Origin: an uncultured Victivallales bacterium
GTDB taxonomy: Bacteria; Verrucomicrobiota; Lentisphaeria; Oligosphaerales; JAFGRS01
Assembly: GCA_903837355.1 (NCBI GenBank)
Contig: CAILUI010000342.1
Span: 1 to 64,000 of the forward strand
Length of the DNA: 64,000 nt
Direction of reading: 5' to 3'
Made by a program: the position numbers and the translations under genes. This document shows, one piece after another, positions 18,644-37,974 of the stretch. The notes under the pieces are model-generated. The model searched no databases. It was given only the letters and a program-made list of their open reading frames with translations, and had not been told where the DNA came from. Position 1 is the first letter of the stretch, and every line of letters starts with the position of its first letter.

Positions 18644-18869
18644 GTGCCGGTGCCCGTACAACCCGCTTGGGCCTGTACCCGTGGCTGTAGTAGCGACGGC
18701 CCGCTACGACACCGCTGTTTCCGGGCCTGGTCGAGGAACCTCACCGGTTCGCTGAAGTCAACGGCGGCATGGACCTTGGGGACGACGAACCCGGAGCCGC
18801 CCGGTTCGTAGTTCCGCCTTCACGCGGTCCTGCCCGCATGGGCTCGGCGCTGGGGCGGCGGGGACACCC
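18644..18869. other. Intergenic, no gene seen
   Basis: A short open stretch in one frame reads VEEPHRFAEVNGG and could be another decayed fragment, but I cannot assign it. No terminator with a T-run was seen. Confidence 0.3.
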
Positions 18870-20471
18870 CTACCGGCCCGGCGTGGGGGCCGCAGGGTAG
18901 ACGCGGAAGCGCAGCGTGCAGGTTCCGGCGTCCGGGGGCGGCCGCAGGTGCACGAGGCCCTGGGCGTCTCGTTTCCAGGTCACCGCGCGTCCGTCCTCGA
19001 GTCGGGCTTCGAGCGTTGGCTCCGCCGTCGGCGGGAACCAGACCAGCGTGTCGCCTTTGACGGGGTCGGGTTTGAAGCGGAGTTCCATCCAGCCGTCCTG
19101 ACAGGAGGCGGCCAGCGGCGTGCCGGCGATGGCGCGCAGGCCGGGCCGGGTCAGATGGACGAGGGCTTCGTCGCGCAGGAGCACGTCCCAACTCCAGGCG
19201 GCCCAGCCGGCGAGGTGGGCGTCGAAGGCATCCAACTGGTCACGGAAGAAGCGCGGATTCGCGAAGGCGGCGGCCGAGGGGCTGCACCATTCCCCGAACC
19301 AGACGGGCAGGCCCAACCGGGTGCCGCTGTCGACGCCACGCTGAATCAGCCAGCGCCCGCGTTCGGCGTTGCCTTCGTAGGCCAGGCCGATCTCGGTCGA
19401 GGTCTCGTAGTAGTGGGGTGCGAAGGCCACGTTGGGGTGGGGGGTGCCGTCGGGTCGCCGCGGCGTCTGCAGGGCGGTCTTGACGCCGCAGCCTGCCAGG
19501 ACCATCGGTTCGAAGAAGCAGATGTGGTTCGGGTCGACCTCGCGGATGGCGGTTACCAGGCGGTCGTGGAAAGGCTGCTGCTTGGCGGTCTCGAAGCGCT
19601 GGACCGCGGGCTCCAGGTCCCGGAACAGCCCCTCCAGCACGCGCAGATCCTGGAGCGGCGCCGCCAGTTCCGCGAACTGCGCCTGCGGGTCGGGGCTGGC
19701 GACGGCCGCCATCCACTTGCTCAGCGTCCCGGGGCCGGAGGTCTTGCCGACCCAGGCGAAGAGCGCTGCCAGGATCGAGGCCATGTCGGAGCCGACGTAG
19801 GGCTCGTTCATCAGGTCGTAGCCGACCACGGTAGGGTCGTCGCGGAAGCGCCGGGCCACGTGCTGCCAGGCCTTGATGTAGTGCGTCTGAATGCCGACGC
19901 CGTCAGGGCCGGGGGCATCGGCCCAGAAGGCATCGAAGCAGGCCATGACGGGCGCGGCCAGGTAGTTCAGGCCCCAGTACGGCGCCTGGGTCATGGGCAG
20001 CCCCTTGTCCTGGCAGGCCCAGGCCGGGGCGCCATCGCCGCCGTAGCGGCGCGAGAACAGGTCCTGGTGCATGTCCAGAACCGCCCAGACGCCGGCCGCG
20101 TGGCAGATGGCCACCAGCTCTTCCAGGCGCTTCAGGTAGGCCTCGTCGTAGGCGCCCGGCGTGGGCTCCAGCCCCTCCCAGACAAAGACCAGGCGCATGC
20201 AGTTGAAGCCCCACGCGGGGTTCCGAGTCGGCAGTTCCTGCTGCAGGGGCCCGTAGACGTTGACCCCATCCTTGGCGATGTTGCCGGTGTTGAAGCCGCG
20301 CAGGATGACGACGCGACCCTGCGGGTCCACGATGTAAGGACCCTCGGTGCGCAGGAAGCCGCCGGCGGGGGGCTCGGCGGCGTGGGCCAACCCGGCCGTG
20401 GCCAGCAGCCACAGCGCCAGCGCCGCCAGGAGCCGGCGCGGGGTTCGGGTCGATGTAGATGAAGCGAGCAT
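18870..20471 (-). CDS. Secreted GH5-type glycosidase (endoglycoceramidase-like)
   Basis: The 533-residue protein has a signal peptide (RRLLAALALWLLATAGLAHAA) and a GH5 TIM barrel. It contains RGFNTGNIAKDG, FNCMRLVFVWEGLEPTPG and LDMHQDLFSRRYGGDGAP, which is typical of the endoglycosylceramidase branch. The likely catalytic acid is E223 in LMNEPY and the nucleophile is E394 in WFGEWCSP. A small beta-sandwich of about 90 residues closes the protein. It should cleave beta-linked glycans outside the cytoplasm, but the natural substrate is not evident from sequence. The ATG at 20471 has GGAG five bases upstream; the longer frame to 20849 runs through REP-like repeats and is not coding. It is divergent from another glycosidase. 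Confidence 0.85.
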   Translation of the reverse strand: MLASSTSTRTPRRLLAALALWLLATAGLAHAAEPPAGGFLRTEGPYIVDPQGRVVILRGFNTGNIAKDGVNVYGPLQQELPTRNPAWGFNCMRLVFVWEGLEPTPGAYDEAYLKRLEELVAICHAAGVWAVLDMHQDLFSRRYGGDGAPAWACQDKGLPMTQAPYWGLNYLAAPVMACFDAFWADAPGPDGVGIQTHYIKAWQHVARRFRDDPTVVGYDLMNEPYVGSDMASILAALFAWVGKTSGPGTLSKWMAAVASPDPQAQFAELAAPLQDLRVLEGLFRDLEPAVQRFETAKQQPFHDRLVTAIREVDPNHICFFEPMVLAGCGVKTALQTPRRPDGTPHPNVAFAPHYYETSTEIGLAYEGNAERGRWLIQRGVDSGTRLGLPVWFGEWCSPSAAAFANPRFFRDQLDAFDAHLAGWAAWSWDVLLRDEALVHLTRPGLRAIAGTPLAASCQDGWMELRFKPDPVKGDTLVWFPPTAEPTLEARLEDGRAVTWKRDAQGLVHLRPPPDAGTCTLRFRVYPAAPTPGR

Positions 20472-23026: not shown

Positions 23027-23626
23027 CTACAGCAGGCCGATGCAGATGCGGCTAGCGAGCACGGCGGCGTCCTCGGTACCGAAAACGCGCAGCGCGGCGG
23101 CATCGAAGAGCACTTCCGCGGTGGGGCCGAACTCCTCGTCGCCACGCTGGTAGATGAGGGTCAGGTAGAGGGGGCCGAAGGCGTGCAGGCAGGCGCCGAG
23201 GTCGCCCTGCGGCACGGGGGTAGCGTCCCAGCGGCCGAGGTTGGTGCGCAGGGCGTCGAGGTCGTTGCCGAAGCGTTTGACCAGGGGTTCGACGGTGCGC
23301 GTCCGGAACGGGCCGAAGTAGAAGCTGCCGCCGGGGAACTCATGGAAGCTCACCAGGCGCTCGGTGCGGGCAACGGGGCCCTCGTGCATGAGGTAGTGCA
23401 GGACCAGAATGCGGTCCGCCAGCTTGGCCGGGGCCCCGGAGGCGGCCAGGCGGATGGCGAGGTCGCTGAGGTCTAGCAGCGCGTCCTGCGCGAAGAGGCG
23501 GAAGGGCACGCGCCCATCCTGTGCGGTGGGCAGGCCCAGGAGCGGCAGGCGGCGCTCAAGATCCACGTCGGCCAGTGCTGTCAGGGCCTGCTCGAGGGCC
23601 TGTTGCTGGGCCTGCTGCTTGGACAT
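23027..23626 (-). CDS. DUF3786 protein, last gene of the CODH/ACS operon
   Basis: The 199-residue soluble protein fits DUF3786, with ILVLHYLMHEGPVART, LVSFHEFPGGSFYFGPF and PLVKRFGNDLDALR in family order. The family occurs mostly in anaerobes, and its role is unproven. Here it starts inside the stop codon of the RACo gene (TGATG overlap), tying it to corrinoid protein maintenance or CODH/ACS assembly by context only. It lacks cysteine motifs for a cluster and has no membrane segment. Confidence 0.75.
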   Translation of the reverse strand: MSKQQAQQQALEQALTALADVDLERRLPLLGLPTAQDGRVPFRLFAQDALLDLSDLAIRLAASGAPAKLADRILVLHYLMHEGPVARTERLVSFHEFPGGSFYFGPFRTRTVEPLVKRFGNDLDALRTNLGRWDATPVPQGDLGACLHAFGPLYLTLIYQRGDEEFGPTAEVLFDAAALRVFGTEDAAVLASRICIGLL

Positions 23627-25539
23627 CAGCGTTCCCCCGTCAGGCGCGCCCGGACCGTCGGGAAGCGCTCCGGATCGGTGTGGGGGATGAAGAGCGCGCC
23701 GGTGTACTGGTCCATGTAGGTCGGATCGGTACTGAGTTCCACGTACGTCATGCGTCGGGCGAGTTCCAACTGCAGTTGCCGATACTCCTGCGAGACCAGG
23801 ACAATATAGGAGCCCATGAGCGAGGAATTGCCAATGTACTGGAAGCGTTCGCGGGGCAGATCGGGGATCAGGCCCAGGGTGGTGGCCTGATCGAGATCGA
23901 GAAAGCGCCCGAAGCCACCGGCGATGTAGACATGTGCCAGGTCGGTGAAGTTGAGCCCGACCTGTTTGACCAGCAGCGCGCAGGCGGAGTAGATGGCGGC
24001 CTTGGCGCGAATGATGTTCTCGATGTCCGTTTCGCTGATGAGCAGGGCTTGGCCGGAGTCAGACTCGGAGGCGGCGACGAGGGTGTACGTAGCGCGGCGT
24101 CCAACGCAGTGGATGATGGGCGACGGGCGTGAGCGGTCGAACTTGCCTGCGGCGTCGATCCAGCCGGTGCTGAACAGGCCGGCCAGGAGCGAGATCATCC
24201 CGGATCCGCAGATGCCCTTGGGCTTGACGTTGCCGATGGTACGCCAGTCGGCCTGCCCGGTTTCGGGATCGACCTCGACTCCCTCGATGGCGCCCAGGGC
24301 GGCGCGCATGCCGCAGCCGATGCCGCCACCCTCGAAGGCCGGGCCGGCCGAGCAGGCGCAGGTGATCAGGAAATCGCGGTTGCCGACGACGATCTCGCCG
24401 TTGGTGCCGATGTCAATGAAGAGGCTGACCGCTTCGGTGTCGGTGGCCAGGTCGGTGCAGAGTACCCCGGCGGTGATATCGCCGCCGACATAGCTACCGA
24501 CGCAGGGCGAGAAGGCAACCCAGGATTCCGGGTTGATCTGTAGGCCGACGTCGCCGGCGTTGAGGAAGGGGGTCTCGTGCAGCGTCGGCGTGTAGGGCGC
24601 GATGCGGATGTGTTCGGGGTTCAGGCCCAGCAGCAGGTGCGTCATGACCGTGTTGCCGGAGAGGATGGCGTTGGAGATCTCGTGCGGGTTGACGTCATGG
24701 CTCTCACAGACCTGCAGGATGAGCCGGTTCACGGTATCCAGCACGCGGCGGCGCAGATCCTCGAGGCGGTCGGGGCGGCGGGCGTAGTTGATGCGGCTGA
24801 TCACATCCAGTCCGCAGGAGATCTGGTCATTGTAGTCGCTGCGGACAGCGACGATCTCGGCCAGCGGCAGGTAGACCAGTTGCACGGCGATGGTGGTGGT
24901 GCCCACGTCCACGGCGATGCCGAAGTGGCGCACGGTGGTGTCGCCGGCCTCGACCGCGATCAGGTGTAGGCAGCCGGATTCGCGCACCAGCGTGGTCGTG
25001 ATCCGGCCGGCCTCGGCGCGCAGGGCGGTCGCCAGTCGGCGCAGCACGGGCAGGGTGACGCGGACCTCGGCCTTGCCCCATTGCTGCAGCAGGGCGCGCA
25101 CCACCCGGTCGAGATCCGAAAGGCCGCCCTCCGCCTCCGGTTCGGGGACCTCGAGGTAGCACTTGACGGCCAGGGGGTCGTAGTGCCAGCGCTGCGGCAG
25201 GAGCTCGTGGCGGACCAGGCGGGCGTCCGCGCTGGAGTCGGAGAACTTGCCGCCGGCGCGGCCGATCTGCTCCGGGATCTCGACCGTGAGCGGCTCATCC
25301 AGAACGCGGGTGCGGCAGGCCAGGACATAGCCGTCGCTGACCGCCCCGGGCGCGAGCACGCCCAGGCTCTGCGAGTCCACCTCGCCGGTGGCAATGCGCA
25401 CGATGCACTTGCCACAGGTGCCCTTGCCGCCGCAGGGCGACTCGGTGTCGATGCCGGCCGTGCGGGCGGCATCGAGCAGGCCCGTACCGGCCGGCACCGT
25501 CACCCGGCGCCCGGAAGGCTGGAAGAGGATCTCAGGCAC
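23626..25539 (-). CDS. acsV: Corrinoid activation protein RACo (AcsV-type ASKHA ATPase with [2Fe-2S] domain)
   Basis: RACo restores the inactive Co(II) form of the corrinoid iron-sulfur protein to Co(I), using ATP and electrons. The 637-residue protein has an N-terminal ferredoxin domain with C36, C42, C45 (PCGGKGTCGKC) and C75. A linker follows, then the ASKHA domain with GIAVDVGTTTIAVQL, AILSGNTVMTHLLLGLNP, LFIDIGTNGEIVVGN, AGPAFEGGGIGCGMRAA and YIAGGFGRFLD. Length and order match the family. It overlaps the acsC stop by eight bases and the DUF3786 start by one base, so it is translated with its substrate protein. The four cluster cysteines and the nucleotide motifs are present, so it should be active. 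Confidence 0.9.
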   Translation of the reverse strand: MPEILFQPSGRRVTVPAGTGLLDAARTAGIDTESPCGGKGTCGKCIVRIATGEVDSQSLGVLAPGAVSDGYVLACRTRVLDEPLTVEIPEQIGRAGGKFSDSSADARLVRHELLPQRWHYDPLAVKCYLEVPEPEAEGGLSDLDRVVRALLQQWGKAEVRVTLPVLRRLATALRAEAGRITTTLVRESGCLHLIAVEAGDTTVRHFGIAVDVGTTTIAVQLVYLPLAEIVAVRSDYNDQISCGLDVISRINYARRPDRLEDLRRRVLDTVNRLILQVCESHDVNPHEISNAILSGNTVMTHLLLGLNPEHIRIAPYTPTLHETPFLNAGDVGLQINPESWVAFSPCVGSYVGGDITAGVLCTDLATDTEAVSLFIDIGTNGEIVVGNRDFLITCACSAGPAFEGGGIGCGMRAALGAIEGVEVDPETGQADWRTIGNVKPKGICGSGMISLLAGLFSTGWIDAAGKFDRSRPSPIIHCVGRRATYTLVAASESDSGQALLISETDIENIIRAKAAIYSACALLVKQVGLNFTDLAHVYIAGGFGRFLDLDQATTLGLIPDLPRERFQYIGNSSLMGSYIVLVSQEYRQLQLELARRMTYVELSTDPTYMDQYTGALFIPHTDPERFPTVRARLTGER

Positions 25540-26878
25540 GGGCCATGAACCTGGCCTTGACGAAGCTCTCGAGATCGCCGGCCTCGGGCGGGCCCACCAG
25601 CACTTCCCAACCGGGCAGGCATTCCTCGAGGTCGCCGCTGATCTGGGCGACGTAACCCGGGATGACCAGGGTGCGGCGCCGGACCTGCCCTTCGAGATCG
25701 ATCTGTTTGGCGAACTTCGCGATGCTGGCGCCGGAGAACTTGCCGGCGGCCCAGGCGGTGAGCACGCTCATGCCCTCGCACTCGGGCACCAGCAGCCAGG
25801 CGCTGATACCGCTGTTCTCGATCTCGCCGGAGACGATGAAATAGGTCAGTGAGAAGTTGGTGGTGACGAAGACCGGCGAATCGGGCGTCGGTTCGCCGAC
25901 GGCGTAGAGCTTGGGCTCGACCTGGATCGGCTTCTGCGGATCGGTGTAGAGGTTCAGCCGCAGCGTCATCAGGACGCTGAGCAGGGCCGGATCGAAGACG
26001 GGCAGGACGCAGATGCCGCCGTACTTGGCGATCTCGGTGACGGCGGCGGGGGTGGCCGCGAGGGGATCGGTGCTGTCGACAAAGGCCAGGGACGGGTAGC
26101 CGAGGGCCTTGCAGCCATCCTTGAGGGCGGCGCGGCGGGCGATGGCGTTGGTCTGGAAGCGTTCCGCCGGCGAGTGCGTGTCAAACTGCAGCAGCAGCTC
26201 GTTGAAGCCGGCCTGCTTGATCTGGGCGGTGAGCTGCACCAGGCCGTTGAGGTCCGGCGCGCTGACGGCCAGGGCGTGGCCATGGGCCTGGGCCGCCGCT
26301 ACCAGGACCGCCTGCGTCTCCGCCGTCGCCGCGGCCAGGACGCTGCCGGAGCCTTTGACGGCTGCCGCCGCACGGACCAACGCCGCCGCATCGGCGTTGC
26401 GCAGTACCAGCGGCCGCTGGGTGACCTCCCAGGCCTGCTTGGCCAGGGCGACGAAGGCATCGGCGTTGCCGGCGGTCCCGTGCACGCAGACCATGTCCAC
26501 CAGGAGTCGCTCGCCGACCCGCTCGAGCACGTAGTCGCGGATCTGCCGCAAGGTCTGTTCGGTGACCGCGGGCGGATCGGTGTCGCGGACGCTGACCGCG
26601 AGCGCCGTCTGGTGGACGAAGGTCTTCTCGTGGCGATAGAGCACGGTCTCCTCGCCCAGCTTGAGGGCCGCCTGGGGACCGAGGCCGATGGCCTTGACCG
26701 GCGGCTCGCTGGCCGCGCCAAGCACGCGTTTGGCTTCGTCCGAGGCGTAGGGGCAGAGGGACAGGTCGGCCTGTTTGGCTGCCAGTTTCATGGCGAAGGC
26801 CAGGCAGGTGTTCGACCCGCATTCCTTGCAGTTGGTCTTGGGCAGGAGCTTCTGTATCTGCAATCCGCTGAGTGCCAT
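25532..26878 (-). CDS. acsC: Corrinoid iron-sulfur protein large subunit
   Basis: AcsC binds the corrinoid and a [4Fe-4S] cluster and, with AcsD, carries the methyl group to acetyl-CoA synthase. The 448-residue protein has the cluster motif C17, C20, C25 and C42 (CKECGSNTC...LC). A TIM-barrel domain follows, and the C-terminal Rossmann-like corrinoid domain contains TNFSLTYFIVSGEIE and a late ARFMARA end. The ATG at 26878 gives the normal family start (MALSGLQIQKLLPKTNCKEC). It lies 38 bases after the acsB-acsD fusion, the expected position for the partner of AcsD, and overlaps acsV by eight bases. No residue loss is visible. Confidence 0.92.
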   Translation of the reverse strand: MALSGLQIQKLLPKTNCKECGSNTCLAFAMKLAAKQADLSLCPYASDEAKRVLGAASEPPVKAIGLGPQAALKLGEETVLYRHEKTFVHQTALAVSVRDTDPPAVTEQTLRQIRDYVLERVGERLLVDMVCVHGTAGNADAFVALAKQAWEVTQRPLVLRNADAAALVRAAAAVKGSGSVLAAATAETQAVLVAAAQAHGHALAVSAPDLNGLVQLTAQIKQAGFNELLLQFDTHSPAERFQTNAIARRAALKDGCKALGYPSLAFVDSTDPLAATPAAVTEIAKYGGICVLPVFDPALLSVLMTLRLNLYTDPQKPIQVEPKLYAVGEPTPDSPVFVTTNFSLTYFIVSGEIENSGISAWLLVPECEGMSVLTAWAAGKFSGASIAKFAKQIDLEGQVRRRTLVIPGYVAQISGDLEECLPGWEVLVGPPEAGDLESFVKARFMARA

Positions 26879-26916
26879 GGCTCGTCTCTCCTGGGCGGGG
26901 CGTGTGGGGCCGCGTC

Positions 26917-29900
26917 CTATTGCTCGGCGCTTCCATCCAGCAGTCGGAAGATGGTTTTCTTGACGGTGATGGCGGCCTCGGGGTGGTACATGATGAGGAC
27001 ATCGGCGCCGGCGTAGAGGAGGCTGGTGGCCGTCGTGGTCTCCCACAGGGCGGCGCGGCGATCGAGGTCGCCCCAGGCGGGGAAGTCCTTCTCGGCCGCC
27101 TTCAGTTCCTTGATCTTGGCGCATTCCTGGCCGGGGTTGCCGAGCATGGGGCCGGCCAGCATCTTATCGCCGCCGAGGCCGGTGAGGCGGATGCGTTCCA
27201 TGACCGAGTAGGTGTACTCCAGGCCGTAGCCCATGGCGCCGGTCATGGGGTCCATGACGATCTGGCCCTGCCTGATGTCCATGTTGGTGAGCAGGATGGT
27301 GAGCTGCTTGGCGATGTTGACATCGATGGGGCTCTGGGCGACGACGCTGTGTCCGTAGGCGAGGGCCGCGCCGGCGATGGTGCGGTAGTTGTCCTGCTCG
27401 ACCCAGTTCAGCAGCAGGTTCTCGCCGGCACAGGCCTGGGCCACGGCTTTCATGACCTCGTTGTTCTTGTCGAAGTGGTTGTGGCCGGTGATGATCAGCG
27501 GCACCTCGACGGCGGCCAGGACACGCTTGACCACGTCGACGGCCGCGGCCGCACTGCGGTTGCCCTTCTCGGGATGGGTGCCCTCGAGCCGCACACTGAT
27601 GAGGTCGGCGCCGTACTGCTCGACGCAGGCCTGCGCCATGCGGGCCGGATCCTGCAGCAGGTCGCCGTAGACGCGGCGCAATACCGCCGGATACTTCTCG
27701 CTGACCGTGTCGAAGACCTCCATCGCCACCAGCGGCCGTTGTGGCATCTGGCCTTCCCAGAGGTGGAAGGGCATGGCCGTCTGGCCGCCGATCAGGTAGG
27801 TCTTGCCGCGCGTGCCGCCTTCCGCCCGCGACGCCCCGAGCTTGACGGTCGCAACCGGGACCTCGCCGACTTCGCGGCGGACGTTGAAGGCGGTTACGGC
27901 ACTGAGACGGTCACGGGCGCTGGGACCGCCACTGGTCGTCGCGAATACCGGTCGAGCCGGCGGCGCGGCGGGCGGCACGGGGAGGGGAGCGCTGGTGGGA
28001 ACGGGACCGCTAACGGGAACGGGTACGGAAGCGGGAACGGAAGCGGGAACGGGGAGGTCCTGGGCGAGGAAGGTGCGCGACAGCGTGGCGATGATCTCGC
28101 GCACGACGTCGCGGGTGACACTGGCCCGGACCTCGGCAGCGAGGTCGCTCTGCCACTGCTGCAGGGCGGCAGCGCTGGGCGGCGGGGCCACGGCGGCGCC
28201 GTCGTGCGACGGCTTCGACGGGGCGGCGGGCGTGCTGGGGGCGGGCGCGACCGGGGTGGCAGCCACGACGGCTGGCGCGGCGACCGGGGCGGCGACCGCG
28301 GCCGGAGCTGGCGCCGCCGGCTCGCTGGCGGCGGCCATGTCCGCCATCTGCAGGGCTGGGTGTCCGACCTTCTCAAGGTAGGCGCGGACCTCGTGCGCCT
28401 CAGTGGCGACCGTTTCGTCGGCGATTTGCTCGAGCAGGTCGGGCACGCCCTGCTCCCCGAAACGCAGCTTGAGGTCCGCCGCCAGCAGCTCCTTCAGCTC
28501 TTTGGGCATCCAGACCAGGCGCCGGTAGCCGCCCTCGGCCTGGAGGAACTTGCGGCTGGTGAGGAAGACTTTGCCGCAGCCCATGAAGCCGGGAGTCTGC
28601 TGGCCGCCGCCGACGCTGCCGGCGAGGCTGGAGAACTTCATGCCGACGGGCGTCTCCCCCTGGAACTCGCGGTTCACGGCCATGATGCCGTTGCACTCGG
28701 GGAGGTAGGCGCAGATGACCTCGAAACAGCCGCAACTGGTCATCGGATTGTCCATGATCGAGTACGCGCAGAACGACTGCACCGACTTGTGGCTGGTGCC
28801 GTAGACGTAGTCGTTGACGCCCTTCCAGACGCCGCGCACCGGGTCCAGGCAGTCGCCCTTCTTGATGGGCTGGTTGGGGCCGGTCGCGTCGATCTCGTGG
28901 GCCGCCTTGCCATCCAGCCAGTTGTAGGCGCCGCACAGCCCGAGGCGTTCGGGGGTGATGACGCAGACGTGGTTGGGGGCGAAGGACTGACACAGCAGGC
29001 AGGAGTAGAAGGTGTCCACGGACTCGTCGGTCATGCTGGCCAGGCGGCGATTGCGCTCGTCGTAGACCTTGCGGGCCACGGCGAGGCGGCGGTTGACCTC
29101 CTCGCCGGCGGTGACCAGAGTGACCTTGACCTTGTCCACGATCGCCGGGTACTCGGCCAGGAACTTGGCGTGGATGATCTCGCCGTAGTGGCGCAGGCGC
29201 AGGCCGCTGGCGAAGCCGGCCTTGGAGACGCGGGTCCAGACGATATCGCGTTGCCCCATGTGCCAGATGCCCTCGGCGCCGTTGACCAGGTGGTGGATCT
29301 GGCGCTCGAGGATGGGCTCGAAGTCGGGCTGCATCTTGCGGCCGGCTACCTCGACCCAGATCGCCAAGGGCAGCGCCGTGCCGTCCGGGACGCTGTCGAT
29401 GTCCGGGCCGATCACCTCGATCTCGCCGTCGTTGATCTGGTCCAGGTTCACGCTGGTGACGAACTCGAAGGCCGGGGTGCGGTTACCGCCGAACTCGACG
29501 CGTACGTCGGTCTTGCGGATGCGTTCGCCCTCGAAGGCGGCGCCGTAGGCGACGGGGATGGGGACGTGGGTGATGCGGATCTTGCAGCCGCGCACCTCGA
29601 GGGCCCGTTCGACCATGGTCTCGTAGGGCACGCTGGAGACGACGTGCTCGTAGGTGCAGACCCCGGTAGGCAGGATCTGCGGGATGGCGGTGTCCGCGAT
29701 CACCGGGAAGCCGTAGTTGATGGCGCCCGCGGCAACGGCGTACTTGTCCGGGGTCACCTCGCCCAAGGCCAGGACGAAGGCGAAGACGCGGTTCTTGTTG
29801 TAGCGCAGGTTGGCCGCAAAGTCGCCTGGCTGCACCCCGCCAAAGGAGAGCGCGGCGCGGTTGGCGAAGCCGAGGGCGTAGACTAGGCTGGAGACGTCCC

Positions 29901-30510
29901 GGCCAAAGGGCACCAGGCGCGTTTCCCAGCCTAACTGTACGCCCTCCTCGGCAAGCTGCTCGGCGAATTGCCGGCCCCCGCTACAGCCCCCCATGAAGAC
30001 ATATAAGTTTTTCTGCTGCAACTCTTTAGCGATCTTTACGGCGATCTTGTTAGTAGGTGCGGCTCCGGTGATGGCGGCAAAGCCGGGAGCCGTGCCATCG
30101 ACGAACTCGATGCCGCGTTCGCGCATGATGACGTCGTTGGCGGCGCCGAGCCAGATGCCCGCGGCCGGGGCCGGACCGATGACCGTCTTGCAGGCTTCGA
30201 TGATTTCGCAGGCGAAGAGGGCGGCGACGCCGGCGTCCAGGGCGTTGCCCAGATAGGGCAGCCAGACGTCGGCGGTCGGACGCTGCGGCAGGAGCTCGCG
30301 GGCGCCGTTGAGCGCGGTCTGCAGGTCCGCCAGGGTTTGCACCTTCTGGCCGGTGAAGCTGTAAATGATGGGCAAATAGTAGGCGGTATCGGGGAAGCCG
30401 ACCGGCGCCGTCGCGCCCTGGGCCGCGATGGCGTCGTTCAGCTTTGCCTGGGCCTTGGCCACCCACTCTATGGCGCCGGCAATGGCGCTGTCGCAGATGA
30501 TCTTAGACAT
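26917..30510 (-). CDS. acsB-acsD: Fusion of acetyl-CoA synthase (AcsB) and corrinoid iron-sulfur protein small subunit (AcsD)
   Basis: One open frame of 1,197 residues covers two Wood-Ljungdahl subunits. Residues 1 to about 730 are a full bacterial ACS that parallels the Moorella enzyme, including PVGFPDTAYYLPII and FGGNRTPAFEFV. The A-cluster cysteines are C504, C507, C516, C526 and the SCGC pair near 593-595. An Ala/Pro-rich linker (about 730-855) includes a short helix and a VPASVPASVPVPV stretch. Residues about 855-1197 are the AcsD TIM barrel (FHLWEGQMPQRPLVAMEVFD, ITGHNHFDKNN, TDPMTGAMGYGLEY-like strand). The two proteins are normally separate. Joining them would tether the methyl donor to the enzyme that uses it. 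The gene overlaps the acsA stop by eight bases and has an AGGAG site. Confidence 0.92.
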   Translation of the reverse strand: MSKIICDSAIAGAIEWVAKAQAKLNDAIAAQGATAPVGFPDTAYYLPIIYSFTGQKVQTLADLQTALNGARELLPQRPTADVWLPYLGNALDAGVAALFACEIIEACKTVIGPAPAAGIWLGAANDVIMRERGIEFVDGTAPGFAAITGAAPTNKIAVKIAKELQQKNLYVFMGGCSGGRQFAEQLAEEGVQLGWETRLVPFGRDVSSLVYALGFANRAALSFGGVQPGDFAANLRYNKNRVFAFVLALGEVTPDKYAVAAGAINYGFPVIADTAIPQILPTGVCTYEHVVSSVPYETMVERALEVRGCKIRITHVPIPVAYGAAFEGERIRKTDVRVEFGGNRTPAFEFVTSVNLDQINDGEIEVIGPDIDSVPDGTALPLAIWVEVAGRKMQPDFEPILERQIHHLVNGAEGIWHMGQRDIVWTRVSKAGFASGLRLRHYGEIIHAKFLAEYPAIVDKVKVTLVTAGEEVNRRLAVARKVYDERNRRLASMTDESVDTFYSCLLCQSFAPNHVCVITPERLGLCGAYNWLDGKAAHEIDATGPNQPIKKGDCLDPVRGVWKGVNDYVYGTSHKSVQSFCAYSIMDNPMTSCGCFEVICAYLPECNGIMAVNREFQGETPVGMKFSSLAGSVGGGQQTPGFMGCGKVFLTSRKFLQAEGGYRRLVWMPKELKELLAADLKLRFGEQGVPDLLEQIADETVATEAHEVRAYLEKVGHPALQMADMAAASEPAAPAPAAVAAPVAAPAVVAATPVAPAPSTPAAPSKPSHDGAAVAPPPSAAALQQWQSDLAAEVRASVTRDVVREIIATLSRTFLAQDLPVPASVPASVPVPVSGPVPTSAPLPVPPAAPPARPVFATTSGGPSARDRLSAVTAFNVRREVGEVPVATVKLGASRAEGGTRGKTYLIGGQTAMPFHLWEGQMPQRPLVAMEVFDTVSEKYPAVLRRVYGDLLQDPARMAQACVEQYGADLISVRLEGTHPEKGNRSAAAAVDVVKRVLAAVEVPLIITGHNHFDKNNEVMKAVAQACAGENLLLNWVEQDNYRTIAGAALAYGHSVVAQSPIDVNIAKQLTILLTNMDIRQGQIVMDPMTGAMGYGLEYTYSVMERIRLTGLGGDKMLAGPMLGNPGQECAKIKELKAAEKDFPAWGDLDRRAALWETTTATSLLYAGADVLIMYHPEAAITVKKTIFRLLDGSAEQ
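27997..28056. repeat. Hexanucleotide micro-repeat inside the AcsB-AcsD linker
   Basis: Ten successive six-base units resemble GGGAAC on the plus strand (GGGAAC, GGGACC, GCTAAC, GGGAAC, GGGTAC, GGAAGC, GGGAAC, GGAAGC, GGGAAC, GGGGAG). On the coding strand they give the alternating Val/Pro/Ser residues of the linker. The same unit type occurs in intergenic spacers of this operon. Confidence 0.8.
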
Positions 30511-32452
30511 TGATCTCTCTCCTGTCCTTCATATCGAGAAGCTTCCGCTCCAGCGCACGGTTGATGCCGAGCCGGTCGCGCTTCTGCTCGATCAGTTCCA
30601 TGATCTTCTCGACCGCGGGGCCCGGTTCCGGGACATCATAGAAGGCGGCGCCGAAGAGCTTCTGCGTTTCCTCGTGGAGGAACTCCTGGACCTTGTCCGA
30701 GCCGGAGGTGTGGAAGGGCAATCCGAGGACGACATCGCAGCCGGAGGCGACGAAGTAGCAGGCGATGGTGACGGCCTTCTCGCTCATCCACTCCGGGGCC
30801 AGGCCGACCGCGGGGAGCTGCGCGAGGTCATCGCCGAGGCCGCCCTCGAGCACGATCTCGGTGGCCGCTTCGAGAATGCGGCCATTGTCGACGCAGCTAC
30901 CCATGTGCAGGATGGGCGGAATACCGACCGTCTCACAAACCTCGCGCAGGCTGGCGCCGGCTGCGGTCAGGGCGGTCTCCGGGGTCAGGGCACCGGTCTT
31001 GGCCGAGGCCTGGGCCGCGCAGCCGGTCTGCAGCACCAGCACATTACGGGCGATCAGCTCGCGGACCACGTGGTTGATGTAGGAATCGGCCTTGGTCTTG
31101 GGGTTATTGCAGCCGACGATGCCGCAGACCCCGCGGATGCGGCCTTGGATGATGGCATCGTTGAGCGGGCGGAAGGAGGCCCGGAAGCGTCCCCCCAGCA
31201 TGTAGCGGATGGCCTCGACGCTGAAGCCCGCCACCAGCGGCTGCTGCTGGCTCGGGATGGCGACCTTGGCCGGGTCACGCCGCGCATAGCGGTCGATGGC
31301 GCGCTTCAGGAGGCTCTTGGCCGAACTCAGGGCGTGGTCGTCGTCGAAGCGCAGGTGCGTGGCGCCGATGGTCTTGGCGATGTCGGCCGTGCTGACGATC
31401 TCGGTGTGGTAGGCCGCGGCCACCTGCGGCAGGCTGGGCATGACGCATTGGACGTCGACCACCATCATCTCCACGGCACCGGTGATGATGGCCAGTTCCT
31501 GCTGGTGGAAGTTGCCGGCCACGGGGATGCCGTGGCGCATGAGAATCTCGTTGGCGGTGCAGCACAGCCCGGCGAGGTTGACGCCCTCCGCCCCCGCGGC
31601 CTGGGCATAGGCTACGACCTCGGGGTCGTTGCAGGCGATGGCCAGCATCTCGGAGAGTGCCGGTTCGTGACCGTGGACGATGACGTTCACCCGCTTCGCC
31701 TCGAGCACGCCCAGGTTGGCGCGTGAGCGCACCGGGGTCGGCGTGCCGAAGAGGATGTCGCCGACCATCGAGGCGAGCCGTGCGCCGCCCCAGCCGTCAG
31801 CCAGGGAGGTGCGGAAGGCCTGCAGGAGCAGGTTGCGGTAGTCGTGGTCGACCCCCATGTGCGTGCGGTGCATGGACTCGACGCACATGCGGTCGATGCC
31901 CAGGGGGGCGACCCCGGTCTCCGCCCAGACGGCCTGACGCTTGCGCGGCGCCAGGCTCAGGGTCTTCAGCGGCTCTTCCTGCGAGGTGAACTCGCCGATG
32001 CAGAGGTGTGCCAGGTCGAGAGCGATGGCGGCGTCGCTGCGGTCGACGGTGGGGATGGCATACTGGGCGGCGGCGCGGTGCAGGGCCTTGGGGTCATTGA
32101 TCCGGTAGTCGCCGCCTTTGCCCTCCGCCACCGCCTTGAGGCGCAGGACGAGGTGCCGGGCGTGGTCGGAATGGGCCGCGCAACCGCCGACGACTTCGCG
32201 CAGGAAGTTGCGGGCCACGATGGTGTCGGCGTCGGCGCCGCAGATGCCGCGCGGGCTCTTGGCCGCGATGCGGCAAGGCCCCATGTGGCAGTTCTTGCAG
32301 CAGACTCCCGAGGTACCGAACTTGCACTGGATGCCCTGCGCATCAAAACGGTCGAAGCAGGTCTCGACGCCGTCGTGCAGGGCTTTGGCGATGACCTCGC
32401 ACGAGGCCTCGTCACTCACCCGGTCTGCGGGTTTCAGGTGTTCTCTGGCCAT
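30503..32452 (-). CDS. acsA: Carbon monoxide dehydrogenase, catalytic (Ni,Fe) subunit
   Basis: AcsA/CooS interconverts CO2 and CO and feeds CO to acetyl-CoA synthase. The 649-residue protein has the D-cluster pair C43 and C51, then the B-cluster cysteines C52, C55, C60 and C71 in QCKFGTSGVCCKNCHMGPCR. The C-cluster ligands are all present: the His of VHGHEP (near 262), the Cys of GLCCTANE (near 296), VQCVMPS (near 334), VGCNNPK (near 448), LQTGCAAQA (near 477) and MGSCVDNGR (near 518). Length is normal. Its stop overlaps the AcsB-AcsD start, and an AGGAG site precedes its ATG. The location next to acsB and CooC genes assigns it to the CODH/ACS complex rather than to a stand-alone CO oxidation system. 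Confidence 0.94.
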   Translation of the reverse strand: MAREHLKPADRVSDEASCEVIAKALHDGVETCFDRFDAQGIQCKFGTSGVCCKNCHMGPCRIAAKSPRGICGADADTIVARNFLREVVGGCAAHSDHARHLVLRLKAVAEGKGGDYRINDPKALHRAAAQYAIPTVDRSDAAIALDLAHLCIGEFTSQEEPLKTLSLAPRKRQAVWAETGVAPLGIDRMCVESMHRTHMGVDHDYRNLLLQAFRTSLADGWGGARLASMVGDILFGTPTPVRSRANLGVLEAKRVNVIVHGHEPALSEMLAIACNDPEVVAYAQAAGAEGVNLAGLCCTANEILMRHGIPVAGNFHQQELAIITGAVEMMVVDVQCVMPSLPQVAAAYHTEIVSTADIAKTIGATHLRFDDDHALSSAKSLLKRAIDRYARRDPAKVAIPSQQQPLVAGFSVEAIRYMLGGRFRASFRPLNDAIIQGRIRGVCGIVGCNNPKTKADSYINHVVRELIARNVLVLQTGCAAQASAKTGALTPETALTAAGASLREVCETVGIPPILHMGSCVDNGRILEAATEIVLEGGLGDDLAQLPAVGLAPEWMSEKAVTIACYFVASGCDVVLGLPFHTSGSDKVQEFLHEETQKLFGAAFYDVPEPGPAVEKIMELIEQKRDRLGINRALERKLLDMKDRREINV

Positions 32453-32597: not shown

Positions 32598-33365
32598 TCA
32601 ACCGCCACCGACCGCCCACGCCACCAGCGCTTCCAGGCGCTGCGCCACCGGGTTCGTGGCGGGCAGCGTCAGCACGCTGGCGCCCTCCTCGCCCAGCCGG
32701 GCCAACTCATCGTCGTCCGGCAAGCCGAGCACCTGCTCTGCGCCCAGTTCGGCCCCCAGCTCGGCCAGGCCGCGGGGGAGTTCGTCGCGCCGCACCCGGT
32801 TCACCACCAGCACCAGATGGCTGTAGCGAATGTCCATCTCCCGAGCCAGCGCGTGCAGCCGGCGCAGCGTCTCCAAACCGCGTTGCGAGGGATCCGTGAC
32901 CAGCACCAGCAGGTCGACGGTGTTGACCAGGCGGCGGGAGAGGTTCTCGAGGCCGGCCTCGTTGTCGAGAACCACGTACGGGTACTGCGCCGCCAACTGC
33001 GCCAGGACCTCGCGGAGCACGTTGTTGGCGTAGCAGTAGCAGCCCGGCCCCTCCGGGCGGCCCATGGCCACGAGGTCGAAGCGGTCCGCCTCGACCAGAC
33101 TCTCGGCAATCTTCAGTTCGAGCAACTGCTGTTTCGAGATGCCGGTGGGCAACCCCTGTCCAGCGATCTGCCGGGCCTGCTCGCGGACGCCGCCGACCGT
33201 GACCTGTGCCTTGACCCCGAGCACGGCATCGAGGCAGGTGTTCGGATCGGCGTCCACGGCCAACACCGGCCCGCGATCGCGGGCGATGAGGCGAGCGACC
33301 AGAAGACCGGCGACGGTCGTCTTGCCGACCCCACCCTTACCGCCGATGGCAATGAGATAGCTCAT
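32598..33365 (-). CDS. cooC: CooC/AcsF-type nickel-insertion ATPase (paralogue 1)
   Basis: CooC-type ATPases load nickel into CODH or ACS. The 255-residue protein has a deviant Walker A KGGVGKTT at 10-17, ADPNTC in switch I and the nickel-binding CxC motif in GPGCYCYANN. The D of VVLDNEAGLENLS (MinD-like Walker A' region) is also present. The spacer before its start consists of GACTACGGGA-like micro-repeats and has no clear ribosome site, so it may depend on translation from upstream. It lies 145 bases upstream of acsA. The second CooC-like gene is 44 bases upstream. One may serve CODH and the other ACS. Confidence 0.87.
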   Translation of the reverse strand: MSYLIAIGGKGGVGKTTVAGLLVARLIARDRGPVLAVDADPNTCLDAVLGVKAQVTVGGVREQARQIAGQGLPTGISKQQLLELKIAESLVEADRFDLVAMGRPEGPGCYCYANNVLREVLAQLAAQYPYVVLDNEAGLENLSRRLVNTVDLLVLVTDPSQRGLETLRRLHALAREMDIRYSHLVLVVNRVRRDELPRGLAELGAELGAEQVLGLPDDDELARLGEEGASVLTLPATNPVAQRLEALVAWAVGGG

Positions 33366-33409: not shown

Positions 33410-34192
33410 TCATGGCGGCTGGCGCTTCTCGAGCTGGCGCAGGATCGTCTCAAAACGGGCCCGAACCTCGGGGGGGCAGACATCCAGGACAGCGGTACCG
33501 CTGCGGTCCGCCTGACGGATGGACTCGGTGAAGGGGATACAGCCCAGGAGGTCTCCGGCCGGCAAGGCTTCGCGGATGAAGGCCTCGTCCTCGGGGCCGG
33601 TGACCTTGTTGGCCACGAAGCAGAGGTCCCGGATGCCGAGCTCGCCGCACATGCGCACGACGCGGCGGGCGCAGTCGAGGGAGCGCTGGCCGGGCTCAAC
33701 CACGATGACCATGGTGTCGACGCCGCGGGCGGTGCCGCGGCCCAGGTGCTCGACGCCGGCCTCCATGTCCAGGACCAGGGCTTCCTCACGAAAGAGCACC
33801 AGGTCGGTCACCAGAGCGCGGATCAGGATGCTCTCCGGGCAGGCACAGCCCCCGCCGCCGCGCGGCACGGCACCCAGCACCAGCAAGGCCACGCCACGAT
33901 GCAGCGTGGCGTAGGTCTCCGTGATGTCGGAGACCTGCGGATTGAGCCTGAACATCTGGCCATACTGCTGGACCTTGGCGCCGGTGCGCTCTTCGATCAG
34001 CGCGACCTGTTCGGCGATGGGGACGATGCCGGCCTGCTGCGCCGCCGACAGGCCGAGAGCCACGGCGAGGTTGGCAACCGGATCGGCATCCACGGCCACC
34101 ACGCGGCGTCCCTGCTCGGCGAGCAGCAACGCCAGCGTTCCGGCCAGCGTCGACTTGCCGACCCCGCCCTTACCTGAGATGGCGATCTTCAT
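33410..34192 (-). CDS. CooC/AcsF-type nickel-insertion ATPase (paralogue 2)
   Basis: The 260-residue protein has Walker A SGKGGVGKST close to the N-terminus, VDADPVANLA, a CxC metal motif in GGGGCACPES and LVLDMEAGVEHLGRG. These features place it with CooC1/AcsF-like Ni-insertion ATPases. It differs clearly from the neighbouring CooC by its longer switch region and by the CAC rather than CYC metal site. GGAG precedes the ATG. Two paralogues in one CODH/ACS operon occur in other anaerobes and fit separate maturation of the C-cluster of CODH and the A-cluster of ACS. Confidence 0.86.
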   Translation of the reverse strand: MKIAISGKGGVGKSTLAGTLALLLAEQGRRVVAVDADPVANLAVALGLSAAQQAGIVPIAEQVALIEERTGAKVQQYGQMFRLNPQVSDITETYATLHRGVALLVLGAVPRGGGGCACPESILIRALVTDLVLFREEALVLDMEAGVEHLGRGTARGVDTMVIVVEPGQRSLDCARRVVRMCGELGIRDLCFVANKVTGPEDEAFIREALPAGDLLGCIPFTESIRQADRSGTAVLDVCPPEVRARFETILRQLEKRQPP

Positions 34193-34237: not shown

Positions 34238-35308
34238 TCAGAACCCGTACTTGCCCCGCAGCAGGTGCGACAGGGCGGCCGTAGTCTCGAAGACCCGCTC
34301 CGCATCGGCCGGGGCCATGGAGCCGGTGCCGCAGGACGGAGTGATCAGGGCCTGGCGCACAATCAGGCCCTTATCGATGCCCTTGGCGGCCAGACCGTCC
34401 ATCACCTGCTCCAGCTTGACGGCGAGACTCTCCGGAGTCTGCTCGCGGATGGCCGCCGAGGTCGGCACCACGCCCCAAGCCAGCATGCCGCCGGCCTCGA
34501 GATGGCGTTTGACCGCGTCGGCGTACATGGCGATGGTCTGGCCGAAGCCGAAGGCGTCGAAGTTGACAATGTCCACGCCCGCATCGATGAGGATGGTCCA
34601 CTCGGTGTTGCCGCAGCAGTGTACCCCGGCGAAGCCGCCTTCGGCCTTGACTGCCGCGACGCACTCGCTGATGGCGGCGACGACGTCATCGCGGCGGACG
34701 GAGACGTAGGTCGAACTGCCGAACGCCGAAAGGATAGGCTCGTCGATGAAACAGATCAGATTCTCGGCATAGGGCTTGAGGGTCTGCAGTTGCCAGCGGC
34801 ACTTCATGGCCATGGTCTTGATGACCACATCGCGAAACTCCTCGTTGTACCAGATGGCCCGCTTGTTCTCGTCAACGATGGTGAGGGCGAAGCTGACCGG
34901 GCCCGTGGTCTGGGCCTTCAGCCATGGCCGCTTGCCGCCGAGCTTCTGCAGCCGCCGCAACAGCCCGTACAGCCCGTGCGAGAAGGCCTCGGAGATGGCC
35001 ATGGCGGCGCAGTCGCCGGTCCCCGCGTCGGGGTCCATGGCGGTCATATAGGTCTCATAGAAGCCGGCGAAGGCCTCGGAGTAGTCGCCCGTGGTGTCGA
35101 TGTACATCCGGCCCTTGGCCTCATCGATGACGGCGCGGGGCATGCCTTCGGAGTACTGGATCTCCATCTGTTCCCGCAGGCCGAAGGCCGACATCTGGGG
35201 CCAGATGGGCGCGTCGAGCGTCCGCAGCGACACGTCGAGCGCGTGCTCCACCTCGGCAAAAGGCATCGACCCGATCGCGGTAGACATCAACTTGGGCTGG
35301 ATGCTCAT
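34238..35308 (-). CDS. Core-MetE-like / uroporphyrinogen-decarboxylase-fold methyltransferase
   Basis: The 356-residue protein matches the C-terminal catalytic half of cobalamin-independent methionine synthase and lacks the N-terminal half. It opens with STAIGSMPFAEVEHALD and IWPQM. VTFALT-like TTGPVSFALTIVDENKR and FIDEPILSAFGSSTY follow, then a zinc site from HCCGNTEW and a late Cys in ITPSCGTGS. Such short forms, described as core-MetE or Mes proteins, can take methyl groups from methyl-corrinoid proteins rather than methyl-folate. Beside a corrinoid iron-sulfur protein operon this would transfer a methyl group to or from homocysteine. An MtaA/MtbA-like role is the alternative. The ATG at 35308 follows GAGG; the extension to 35365 is a hexamer repeat. 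Confidence 0.75.
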   Translation of the reverse strand: MSIQPKLMSTAIGSMPFAEVEHALDVSLRTLDAPIWPQMSAFGLREQMEIQYSEGMPRAVIDEAKGRMYIDTTGDYSEAFAGFYETYMTAMDPDAGTGDCAAMAISEAFSHGLYGLLRRLQKLGGKRPWLKAQTTGPVSFALTIVDENKRAIWYNEEFRDVVIKTMAMKCRWQLQTLKPYAENLICFIDEPILSAFGSSTYVSVRRDDVVAAISECVAAVKAEGGFAGVHCCGNTEWTILIDAGVDIVNFDAFGFGQTIAMYADAVKRHLEAGGMLAWGVVPTSAAIREQTPESLAVKLEQVMDGLAAKGIDKGLIVRQALITPSCGTGSMAPADAERVFETTAALSHLLRGKYGF

Positions 35309-35379: not shown

Positions 35380-36267
35380 TCAGGCTGAGACCGCCGTCTT
35401 CAGGGCGCGGATGTGGTCCGGGGTGGTACCGCAACAGCCCCCGACGATGTTGGCTCCGGCGGCCACGATGGCCGTGATCTGTGCGGCCATGTCGGCCGGC
35501 GATTCCGGGAAGACATCGACGCCGTTGACGTTCTTGGGCAGTCCGGCGTTGGCATGTACCAGGATCGGCGTCTGCGGTGCGGCGGCCCGCATCTCGCGGA
35601 CGATCTCGATCATGCGCTCGATGCCGTTACCGCAGTTGGTGCCGATGATATCCGCGCCGGCGGCGAGGGCGGCCTGGGCGGCCTCCGTCGGGGTGGTGCC
35701 CATCATGGTCCGGTAGTCACCGTTCACCGTACGGTCGAAGGTGAAGGTGCAGATCACCTCGCAACCGGTGTTCTCCTTGGCGGCACGAACGGCGATGGCG
35801 GCCTCGTCGGCAGCCATCATGGTCTCGATGCAGAGGCCATCGGCGCCGCCCTTTTCAAGCGCCTGGCACTGCTCCTTGAAGGCAGCGTAGAGCTCCGCTT
35901 CGGTGATGTCACCCATCAGCAGCATCTTGCCGGTCGGGCCCACCGAGGCGATCACCCAGGCCTGGCTACCCGCCGCCTGGCGCGAGATCCGGGCCGCGGC
36001 CTCGTTGATCTCGCCCACCCGCGCCGCCAGCCCATAGTGCGCCAGCTTGCAGCCGCTGCCACCGAAGCTGTTCGATTCGATCATGTCCGCCCCGGCGGCG
36101 ACGTAACTCCGGGCGATGTCCAGGACTTCGCCCGGACGCTCGACGCACCACAACTCGGGGCACTCACCGGGCTGCAGGCCCTTCTTCTGCAGAAAGGTGC
36201 CCCAGGCACCGTCGGACACCAGAACGCGCCCCGCCTGCACTGCCGCCACGATCCTGCCTCTGTCCAT
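35380..36267 (-). CDS. Homocysteine S-methyltransferase family protein
   Basis: The 295-residue protein is a stand-alone zinc-dependent homocysteine methyltransferase domain like the N-terminal module of MetH. It has LVSDGAWGTFLQKKGL near the start, IESNSFGGSGCKL, ASVGPTGKM, the zinc cysteines in GTNCGNG and GGCCGTTP, and HANAGLP. It likely moves a methyl group between homocysteine and a methyl-corrinoid or a small methyl donor. It is the first gene of the CODH/ACS operon, with GGAGGAT upstream, and the core-MetE-like gene follows 71 bases later. No separate corrinoid carrier protein is present, so the corrinoid iron-sulfur protein is the obvious partner, though this is inference. Confidence 0.82.
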   Translation of the reverse strand: MDRGRIVAAVQAGRVLVSDGAWGTFLQKKGLQPGECPELWCVERPGEVLDIARSYVAAGADMIESNSFGGSGCKLAHYGLAARVGEINEAAARISRQAAGSQAWVIASVGPTGKMLLMGDITEAELYAAFKEQCQALEKGGADGLCIETMMAADEAAIAVRAAKENTGCEVICTFTFDRTVNGDYRTMMGTTPTEAAQAALAAGADIIGTNCGNGIERMIEIVREMRAAAPQTPILVHANAGLPKNVNGVDVFPESPADMAAQITAIVAAGANIVGGCCGTTPDHIRALKTAVSA

Positions 36268-36711: not shown

Positions 36712-37974
36712 ATGCGCACCACTGAGCGCTTCCATGCCAAGGTCGACGGTGTTCTGGAGACCTGCGCTGCGCACCTGTTCCAGGGCTGCGTCTTCGTGCC
36801 CGTTGAGGCCCGCGAGCCCGTGCGTTCCGGGCGCCAGAGCTGCAGCTTCTGTCGTCACCGCACCGAGGACAGCCGTACGGAACTGCACTGCCGGCGCAGC
36901 GTCGTCAGTTCCGCCTACCAGTCGCTGCGGACCGGCGAGCCTTTCTTCACCACCTGTTGGCTGGGGCTGAACACCTGTGTCGTACCGGTGGCGCCCGGGG
37001 GCCGTTTGCGGGGCGCCATCACGTTGGGGGCCTATGCCTTCTTTGGTGACGTTGGGGACCCGGCCTTTGTGCGGGCCAATATTCCCACGGATCGCGCCGG
37101 CCGGTCGGCGGCGCTCGATCGTGACCTTGCCGATCTCTGCACCGTGTCGCCCTTCCAGGCCCGGCACGCCGCGGCCTTCGTCTGGGATGCCGTCATGGCC
37201 GCCGGCCTCAATGATGGGAAGGACCTGGCGCGTCGGCACGAACACTACCTCCTGCAGCGTCGTATCGCGGAGCAGATGCACCGCTACTGCCAGGAGCAGA
37301 CCATGCCCGATGATGCGGCTGAACTGCTGCCGGTGGTCAGCGCCGCACTGCGGGCCGGGGACAAGGAGGAGGTGCTGCAGGTGTTCAACGACTACTGCTG
37401 CCGGGTACTGCTCAGCGACGCCTCGAACCTGGAACGGGTCAAGGCCCACTTCCACCTGCTGGCCAGCCTGCTGGCGCGCGAGCGCGCCCTGCTCGGCCGC
37501 TGTTCGATGGAGGTTGCCGTCGCCGAGCAGCGCCTCTCCTTCCAGCAGGTGGCGCAGGCCGCCGACAATGAGGACGCCTGCTACGTCATGTTCTGCCGGC
37601 TGCGGGCCGCGCTCAGCGACCCGCTCGCGCTGCCGCTTGGCGATCGGCTCAGCGATCGCATGCTGGCCTGGCTGGGCCGGCACTTCGCCGAGCCGTTGAC
37701 GCTCGACCAAGCCGCCACCGTGCTGCGCGCCAGTACCTCAGCCATCGCCAAGGCCCTGCGCCGCGAGACCGGCCAGAGCTTCGTGACGCACCTGCACCGC
37801 TTGCGTCTGTTGGAGGCCAAAGACCTGCTCGCCACCAGTTCCCTGAGTATCTACCAGATCGCGGAACGCTGCGGCTACTACGATCCCAGTCACTTCCACC
37901 GGCGCTTTCGGCGCGAGTTCGCCATGGGGCCGCGTGACTTCCGCAAGATGTTGCGCCGCAGCGAGGACCTGTAG
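36712..37974 (+). CDS. PocR-domain AraC-family transcriptional regulator
   Basis: The 420-residue protein has an N-terminal PocR sensor domain (about 5-150), a helical middle region and a C-terminal AraC DNA-binding domain (about 325-415). The sensor contains the family Cys pattern: CSFCRHR, an LHCRR cysteine, and TCWLGLNTCVVPV. The DNA-binding domain shows two helix-turn-helix units, LDQAATVLRASTSAIAKALR and IYQIAERCGYYDPSHFHRRF. PocR domains are thought to bind small organic effectors. The gene is divergent from the CODH/ACS-methyltransferase operon across a 444-base spacer and is the natural candidate for its regulator. AAGGAT lies upstream of the ATG. The effector may be a methylated substrate, which is not shown by sequence. 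Confidence 0.85.
   Translation: MRTTERFHAKVDGVLETCAAHLFQGCVFVPVEAREPVRSGRQSCSFCRHRTEDSRTELHCRRSVVSSAYQSLRTGEPFFTTCWLGLNTCVVPVAPGGRLRGAITLGAYAFFGDVGDPAFVRANIPTDRAGRSAALDRDLADLCTVSPFQARHAAAFVWDAVMAAGLNDGKDLARRHEHYLLQRRIAEQMHRYCQEQTMPDDAAELLPVVSAALRAGDKEEVLQVFNDYCCRVLLSDASNLERVKAHFHLLASLLARERALLGRCSMEVAVAEQRLSFQQVAQAADNEDACYVMFCRLRAALSDPLALPLGDRLSDRMLAWLGRHFAEPLTLDQAATVLRASTSAIAKALRRETGQSFVTHLHRLRLLEAKDLLATSSLSIYQIAERCGYYDPSHFHRRFRREFAMGPRDFRKMLRRSEDL

Follow-up and report, generated by a model that had tools for sequence, protein, structure and literature searches.

Acetyl-CoA synthase and the corrinoid protein small subunit AcsD share one open frame in a widespread type of carbon monoxide dehydrogenase/acetyl-CoA synthase operon

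In the described carbon monoxide dehydrogenase/acetyl-CoA synthase (CODH/ACS) systems, the corrinoid iron-sulfur protein (CFeSP, also CoFeSP; subunits AcsC and AcsD) must reach the A-cluster as ACS (AcsB) swings between closed and extended states (PMC12289521). This encounter is transient, and the meeting of methyl-CFeSP with the A-cluster is therefore hard to study; in a cryo-EM study, methyl cobinamide replaced CH3-CoFeSP, since complex formation required concentrations at which the micrographs became crowded (PMC12289521). A docked AlphaFold3 model places the CoFeSP beta-subunit on the N-terminal domain of ACS (PMC12289521). In archaeal acetyl-CoA decarbonylase/synthase (ACDS), CFeSP is stably bound, and ACS has a flexible C-terminal extension of ~75 residues thought to be important for swinging between CODH and CFeSP (PMC11474084). 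Dehalococcoides has no CODH, and its AcsB is apart from an AcsCD dimer (PMC7005905); AcsE and MetF are also missing there, and CoFeSP is the proposed source of methyl groups for the core-MetE protein MesB (PMC7857596, PMC7005905). Here we analyze a 64,000-nucleotide stretch of DNA from an uncultured Victivallales bacterium (the window), in which the genes for AcsB and AcsD are joined in a single open frame.

A single open frame for AcsB and AcsD

The fused frame lies at 26917-30510 of the window on the minus strand, with its ATG at 30510 and its stop codon at 26919-26917. Its 1197 codons contain no internal stop, and there is no N in the window. The predicted product of 1197 residues and 128.0 kDa is close to the single ~125-kDa product expected in a sequence-only reading of this DNA. 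AcsB is followed by a linker of ~150 residues and then by AcsD:

28327..30510, minus strand: AcsB (acetyl-CoA synthase) part, residues 1-728 (NF040764, PF19436/PF03598/PF18537, invariant cysteines, AlphaFold2 (AF2) model)
27871..28326, minus strand: linker rich in Ala and Pro, residues 729-880, with a predicted helix between two stretches of disorder (composition, AF2 per-residue confidence (pLDDT), dN/dS in relatives)
28069..28173, minus strand: predicted linker helix, residues 780-814 (conservation in relatives, AF2)
26917..27870, minus strand: AcsD (CFeSP small subunit) part, residues 881-1197 and the stop codon (PF03599, NF003376, AF2 model against 4djd_D)

Both parts are complete, as the sequence-only reading had claimed. 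Residues 10-725 match the NCBIfam profile NF040764 (ACS alpha/beta) with 1037 bits against a cut-off of 800, and the domains PF18537, PF03598 and PF19436, including the N-terminal CODH-binding domain, place this part within AcsB. Residues 886-1190 match the delta subunit profile NF003376 with 373 bits against a cut-off of 280, placing them within AcsD; the narrower profile NF040759 (WLP_AcsD) gives 255 bits, under its cut-off of 430. The six A-cluster cysteines (C504, C507, C516, C526, C593 and C595), all of which had been recognized in the initial reading, are invariant in 61 aligned fusions. In the AF2 model, the AcsB part matches solved ACS structures and the AcsD part matches 4djd_D with a TM score of 0.94 by target length. 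Where the canonical cluster has acsB and acsD as separate genes, this locus has one open frame.

The genome has a GC content of 68%, and a 1004-residue antisense frame (window 26872-29886, plus strand) overlaps the fusion; such a frame is expected at this GC content and is not thought to be a gene. A long open reading frame is thus by itself weak proof of a fusion. What shows that the fusion is real is its conservation across many independent genomes, together with purifying selection on the linkers of relatives: nonsynonymous divergence (dN) is below synonymous divergence (dS) in seven close pairs, and far lower in six of them, indicating that the linker is translated and selected. These results confirm the AcsB-AcsD fusion as one open frame.

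The linker is rich in Ala (24%) and Pro (19%), as first described, but it is not a plain spacer, as most members have a conserved helix within it. AF2 predicts disorder at residues 733-778 (pLDDT about 31-42) and 818-860 (pLDDT 35-39), flanking a helix at 780-814 of modest confidence (pLDDT about 55-66). Across relatives this segment of ~40 residues has the consensus (I/L)TPELIxQIKxQIxxEVxxELKxxxTxEIVxDIIxTLSxKFLG, in which the I, I, L, F, L and G positions are kept in 59-68 of about 70 sequences. Searches of Pfam and the PDB returned no convincing relative of the helix, and none beyond chance. Its probable role is in docking or self-association. We also considered whether AcsD of unfused relatives has a long N-terminal extension, of which the linker would be a leftover; this idea is unsupported among the sequences read, and the unfused AcsD encoded elsewhere in the same assembly (contig C113) seems to start shortly before its domain. 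Long frames stand upstream of AcsD in three loci (L124, L125 and L127).

Distribution and origin of the fusion

The sequence-only reading had proposed a genome search for both domains in one chain. With the AcsD half of the fusion as query, we scanned about 85,000 species genomes and found 97 relatives, 80 of which were kept as named loci; unfused kin may be under-sampled, as the query came from a fusion. ACS and AcsD stand in one open frame in 74 of the 80 loci, and the remaining six (L045, L053, L062, L081, L100 and L108) begin at a contig end. The frame is broken inside the ACS part in two of the fused loci (L082 and L091), and the fused gene contains frameshifts in genomes G011 and G078. 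Twenty fused genomes of the named set were checked, and none has a full ACS other than the fusion. The fusion noticed in the window is therefore real, but it is not peculiar to a single genome; it belongs to a widespread type that forms one clade.

The record titles of the fused loci carry about 18 phylum-level labels, which are the submitters' own and in some cases doubtful: Lentisphaerota, Verrucomicrobiota, KSB1, Aminicenantes, Acidobacteriota, Bacteroidota, Raymondbacteria, Ignavibacteriota, Fibrobacterota, SAR324, Spirochaetota, Syntrophaceae, Planctomycetota, Oligoflexia, Myxococcota, Bacillota, Actinomycetota and Synergistota. A metagenome-assembled genome (MAG) titled Akkermansia muciniphila (L060) also has the fused operon; its title is probably wrong. 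Treponema primitia as a cultured carrier is unsupported, since its published gene neighbourhood lists separate subunits and a methyltransferase (PMC3082573).

The statement that described operons keep acsB and acsD separate held up in the groups we surveyed. In Clostridia, 20 of 341 genomes matched, with the fusion present only in the fused genome used as the centre; in Desulfobacterota, 203 of 297 genomes matched and, among the matches listed, only the centre genome has the fusion. In a quick tree of 99 ACS parts (LG+G4), the 64 fused ACS sequences form one side of a branch with an SH-aLRT support of 99, so that the fusion requires one change on the tree, and their nearest neighbours are unfused ACS of the Desulfobacterota type. 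The simplest reading of these sequence data is that a single fusion event was followed by transfer between phyla. The basal fused group, from Ignavibacteriae and Aminicenantes (L072, L083, L105, L110 and L066), has a different CODH, scoring about 650-706 bits where most others reach about 1000, which would fit an exchange of the CODH partner in this group. We found no earlier report of an AcsB-AcsD (cdhC/cdhD) fusion in the open-access full-text literature, and the fused type is apparently an undescribed, widespread variant of CODH/ACS.

In five Synergistaceae loci (L111, L113, L114, L117 and L118), AcsB-AcsD is followed in the same frame by AcsC, with one stop codon, TAG or TAA, in between. 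A triple fusion with AcsC in this family (an open frame of 1598) was rejected, as the TAG or TAA divides the genes.

The operon around the fused gene

The operon that accompanies the fused gene is distinct: AcsE is absent from it and a core-MetE-like gene is present. AcsE occurs in none of the 80 fused loci and none of 20 extended fused regions, unlike the canonical cluster; it is found in 17 of the 19 unfused regions that we read. Conversely, the core-MetE-like gene stands upstream in all 18 informative fused loci (of the 20 extended regions, two are cut by a contig end) and in 0/19 unfused regions. In the window, the operon comprises the following genes in addition to the fusion:

23027..23626, minus strand: DUF3786 protein, a recurrent downstream neighbour (PF12654, neighbourhoods)
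23626..25539, minus strand: RACo/AcsV, reductive activator of corrinoid protein (PF14574/PF17651, NF040756)
25532..26878, minus strand: AcsC, CFeSP large subunit, start MALSGLQIQK (NF003195, PF03599, PF04060)
30503..32452, minus strand: CODH catalytic subunit (AcsA/CooS), its end overlapping the fusion ATG by 8 bases (TIGR01702)
32598..33365, minus strand: CooC-type nickel-insertion ATPase 1 (CbiA/ParA family, conserved position)
33410..34192, minus strand: CooC-type nickel-insertion ATPase 2 (CbiA/ParA family, conserved position)
34238..35308, minus strand: core-MetE (MesB)-like methyltransferase (PRK00957, zinc ligands, AF2 fold, adjacency in fused loci)
35380..36267, minus strand: homocysteine S-methyltransferase family protein, a frequent upstream partner (PF02574, neighbourhoods)

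AcsC (26878-25532) and RACo (25539-23626) do follow the fusion in the normal way, as first read; the operon otherwise departs from the usual one, with AcsE missing and the core-MetE-like gene upstream. From phylum to phylum, the genes stand in the order (homocysteine methyltransferase)-core-MetE-like-CooC-CooC-CODH-AcsB~AcsD-AcsC-RACo. Two loci (L216 and L219) have two extra genes, of about 160 and 425 residues, between CooC and CODH. Divergent from the operon in the window is an AraC-type regulator with a PocR domain (36712-37974, plus strand), a candidate operon regulator.

Compared to the bacterial systems with free CFeSP (Moorella, Carboxydothermus and Clostridium autoethanogenum), this type shares CODH, a three-part ACS with the CODH_A_N domain, the A-cluster ligands, the AcsD and AcsC folds, RACo and CooC. 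Its distinguishing features are the single AcsB-AcsD chain with a structured linker and an operon that lacks AcsE and contains the core-MetE-like gene.

The core-MetE-like neighbour resembles MesB in both fold and ligands. Its putative zinc ligands H232, C234, D253 and C328 (numbering of the first alignment row) are invariant in 19 members, 14 of which match the PRK00957 methionine synthase profile, and its AF2 model matches MetE, UroD and a Methanosarcina methyltransferase; like MesB, it combines a MetE/UroD fold with the H-x-C, D and C ligands and has no folate-binding N-terminal domain. The Asp lies at +21, and the Cys is at +96 here compared to +97 in MesB. The similarity criterion published for MesB is a phmmer score of at least 130 bits (PMC7857596), and methylcobalamin:homocysteine activity is a further mark of the enzyme. 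The locus thus shares with Dehalococcoides an operon without AcsE and a MetE-core protein with H-x-C; unlike in Dehalococcoides, CODH is present and AcsB is fused to AcsD. By analogy with the proposal for Dehalococcoides, the operon content suggests methyl exchange with homocysteine/methionine, in one direction or the other.

A tethered corrinoid protein and its alternatives

Overall, we think it probable that a single translational fusion of the ACS and AcsD genes spread with its operon and that the tether keeps CFeSP beside ACS; transfer of the methyl group to homocysteine is the less certain part. In this account, the ACS gene was joined once to the gene of the corrinoid protein small subunit, and the fused gene would then have spread between phyla together with the operon. 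ACS would sit on CODH via its N-terminal domain, while AcsD would hang by a flexible arm from the ACS C-terminus, the A-cluster domain, and would hold AcsC with the corrinoid; the intact domains suggest that AcsC binds AcsD as in other systems. The corrinoid protein would thereby be kept beside the A-cluster during the large movements of ACS, yielding a lasting 1:1 CODH-ACS-CFeSP complex and a tethered encounter in place of a weak diffusive one. Such a permanent tether is the likely role of the fusion, and a 1:1 stoichiometry of AcsB and AcsD follows if the chain stays intact. In a chain model, the root-mean-square length of the arm is estimated at 7-9 nm and the effective local concentration at 0.1-1 mM. 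Less surely, the tethered corrinoid protein would give its methyl group to homocysteine via the core-MetE-like neighbour rather than exchange it with tetrahydrofolate (THF) via AcsE.

Archaea meet the encounter problem with a large complex; the fusion seems to solve it covalently. As a functional parallel, CFeSP stays with ACS in the ACDS of Methanosarcina, where ACS also ends in a flexible extension; unlike in ACDS, the ACS-CFeSP link here is covalent. The PDB search revealed no sequence relation between the linker helix and the archaeal extension, although this is a weak test for so short a tail. Pyruvate dehydrogenase E2-type linkers likewise have Ala/Pro-rich flexible stretches around a small helical element and keep a mobile carrier near its partners; the likeness is an analogy, and no sequence relation was found.

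Several observations count against this account. The tether effect is a polymer estimate, AF2 gives no confident placement of AcsD on ACS (pTM 0.48), and the members of the fused type are known here from their sequences and predicted structures. The conserved linker segment is absent in Syntrophaceae and in the Ignavibacteriae member L072, so that the flexible arm is the constant part of the linker. For the methyl group, AcsE-like pterin proteins are encoded outside the operon in G469 (265 residues, beside methylenetetrahydrofolate reductase (MTHFR) and Fhs) and G471 (273 residues), and pterin domains lie near MTHFR in G458, G462 and G467. Furthermore, MTHFR is present in 28 of 31 fused genomes and Fhs in 18 of 31, so that many of them may still draw their methyl groups from methyl-THF, and the many fused genomes with MetH-sized frames would have no need for a second methionine route. 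The AcsE-like and pterin proteins, MTHFR and Fhs also favor an ordinary synthesis of acetyl-CoA, in which methyl-THF is the donor, the AcsE-like enzyme is distant or unlinked, and the methionine-synthase-like neighbour is a side branch for methionine; MesB is known near Wood-Ljungdahl genes. We regard this as a serious possibility, somewhat short of an even chance. Against it, AcsE adjoins no fused operon. In a genome-wide search, most fused genomes show only MetH-sized or dihydropteroate synthase-like frames, and no AcsE-like protein was detected in G014, G019, G425, G470 and G472, in a single-sequence search that may miss divergent homologs and in incomplete MAGs; in G470, AcsE, MTHFR and Fhs all went undetected. 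Given the AcsE-sized proteins in G469 and G471, the pterin domains near MTHFR and the frequency of MTHFR and Fhs, the methyl source probably differs among carriers.

It is unlikely that the fused frame yields two proteins, through an internal start at the linker or proteolysis, leaving the organism with a free corrinoid protein of the normal kind. Linkers that are long and disordered are easily cleaved, and 12 of 75 linkers have a Met where the helix begins, preceded in some by a Shine-Dalgarno-like run (AGGAGG-like in L061 and L040); this Met could be left over from a former start of AcsD, whose N-terminus the helix would then have been, or could still serve as an internal start in those members. 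Most relatives lack it, however, and in the window linker no Met codon (ATG) occurs from residue 725 to 913, nor does any GTG come with a Shine-Dalgarno-like sequence. In addition, the frame is open in all full-length members and the linker is under purifying selection. Encapsulation peptides, which direct enzymes into bacterial microcompartments, have a short amphipathic-looking helix between flexible linkers, as seen here, yet shell proteins (PF00936) are absent from 13 of 14 fused genomes; we rejected this very improbable role for the linker helix, as the window's own genome, in a 95% complete assembly, has no shell genes. The chance that an assembly or sequencing error merged two adjacent genes is negligible: the assembly is a draft with 8% contamination, and the gene is frameshifted in G011 and G078, but dozens of independent assemblies have the same architecture and a common linker motif, and acsB never directly precedes acsD in the unfused relatives that we read.

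The tethered complex may be part of a distinct type of CODH/ACS that exchanges methyl groups with homocysteine/methionine instead of THF, an acetyl-CoA-cleaving or methionine-linked one-carbon module spread by horizontal transfer across many phyla; we put this forward tentatively and think it rather less probable than not. What could alter the understanding of the enzyme is the operon evidence on AcsE. For structural and kinetic studies, a natural one-chain ACS-AcsD would supply a complex of fixed 1:1 composition, and its design would be at hand for the engineering of CO2-fixing enzymes. The fusion is also the mark of a CODH/ACS lineage that is widespread among uncultured anaerobes and bacteria of termite guts, for which AcsE cannot be assumed as the methyl source; surveys that demand all five subunits AcsA-AcsE (the rule in PMC12827605) could score its carriers as lacking the pathway.

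In three fused genomes, an AcsE-like pterin-binding domain adjoins MTHFR or is in-frame with it (G462, C78, about 17282-19312; G458, C9, 58318-61430; G467, C246, 20825-23382), possibly a different arrangement of the methyl-branch methyltransferase.

The conserved linker helix, the missing AcsE and the methionine-synthase-like gene upstream all go beyond the sequence-only reading, as does a second CODH/ACS cluster in the window's own assembly. This cluster, on contig C113 (L198, 27000-46000), has unfused ACS and AcsD together with AcsE, and MTHFR and Fhs lie just upstream. The 8% contamination limits the assignment of the two contigs to one organism; the GC contents, 0.678 and 0.662, agree. If both contigs do belong together, the organism has two such systems, with the fused operon as the second.

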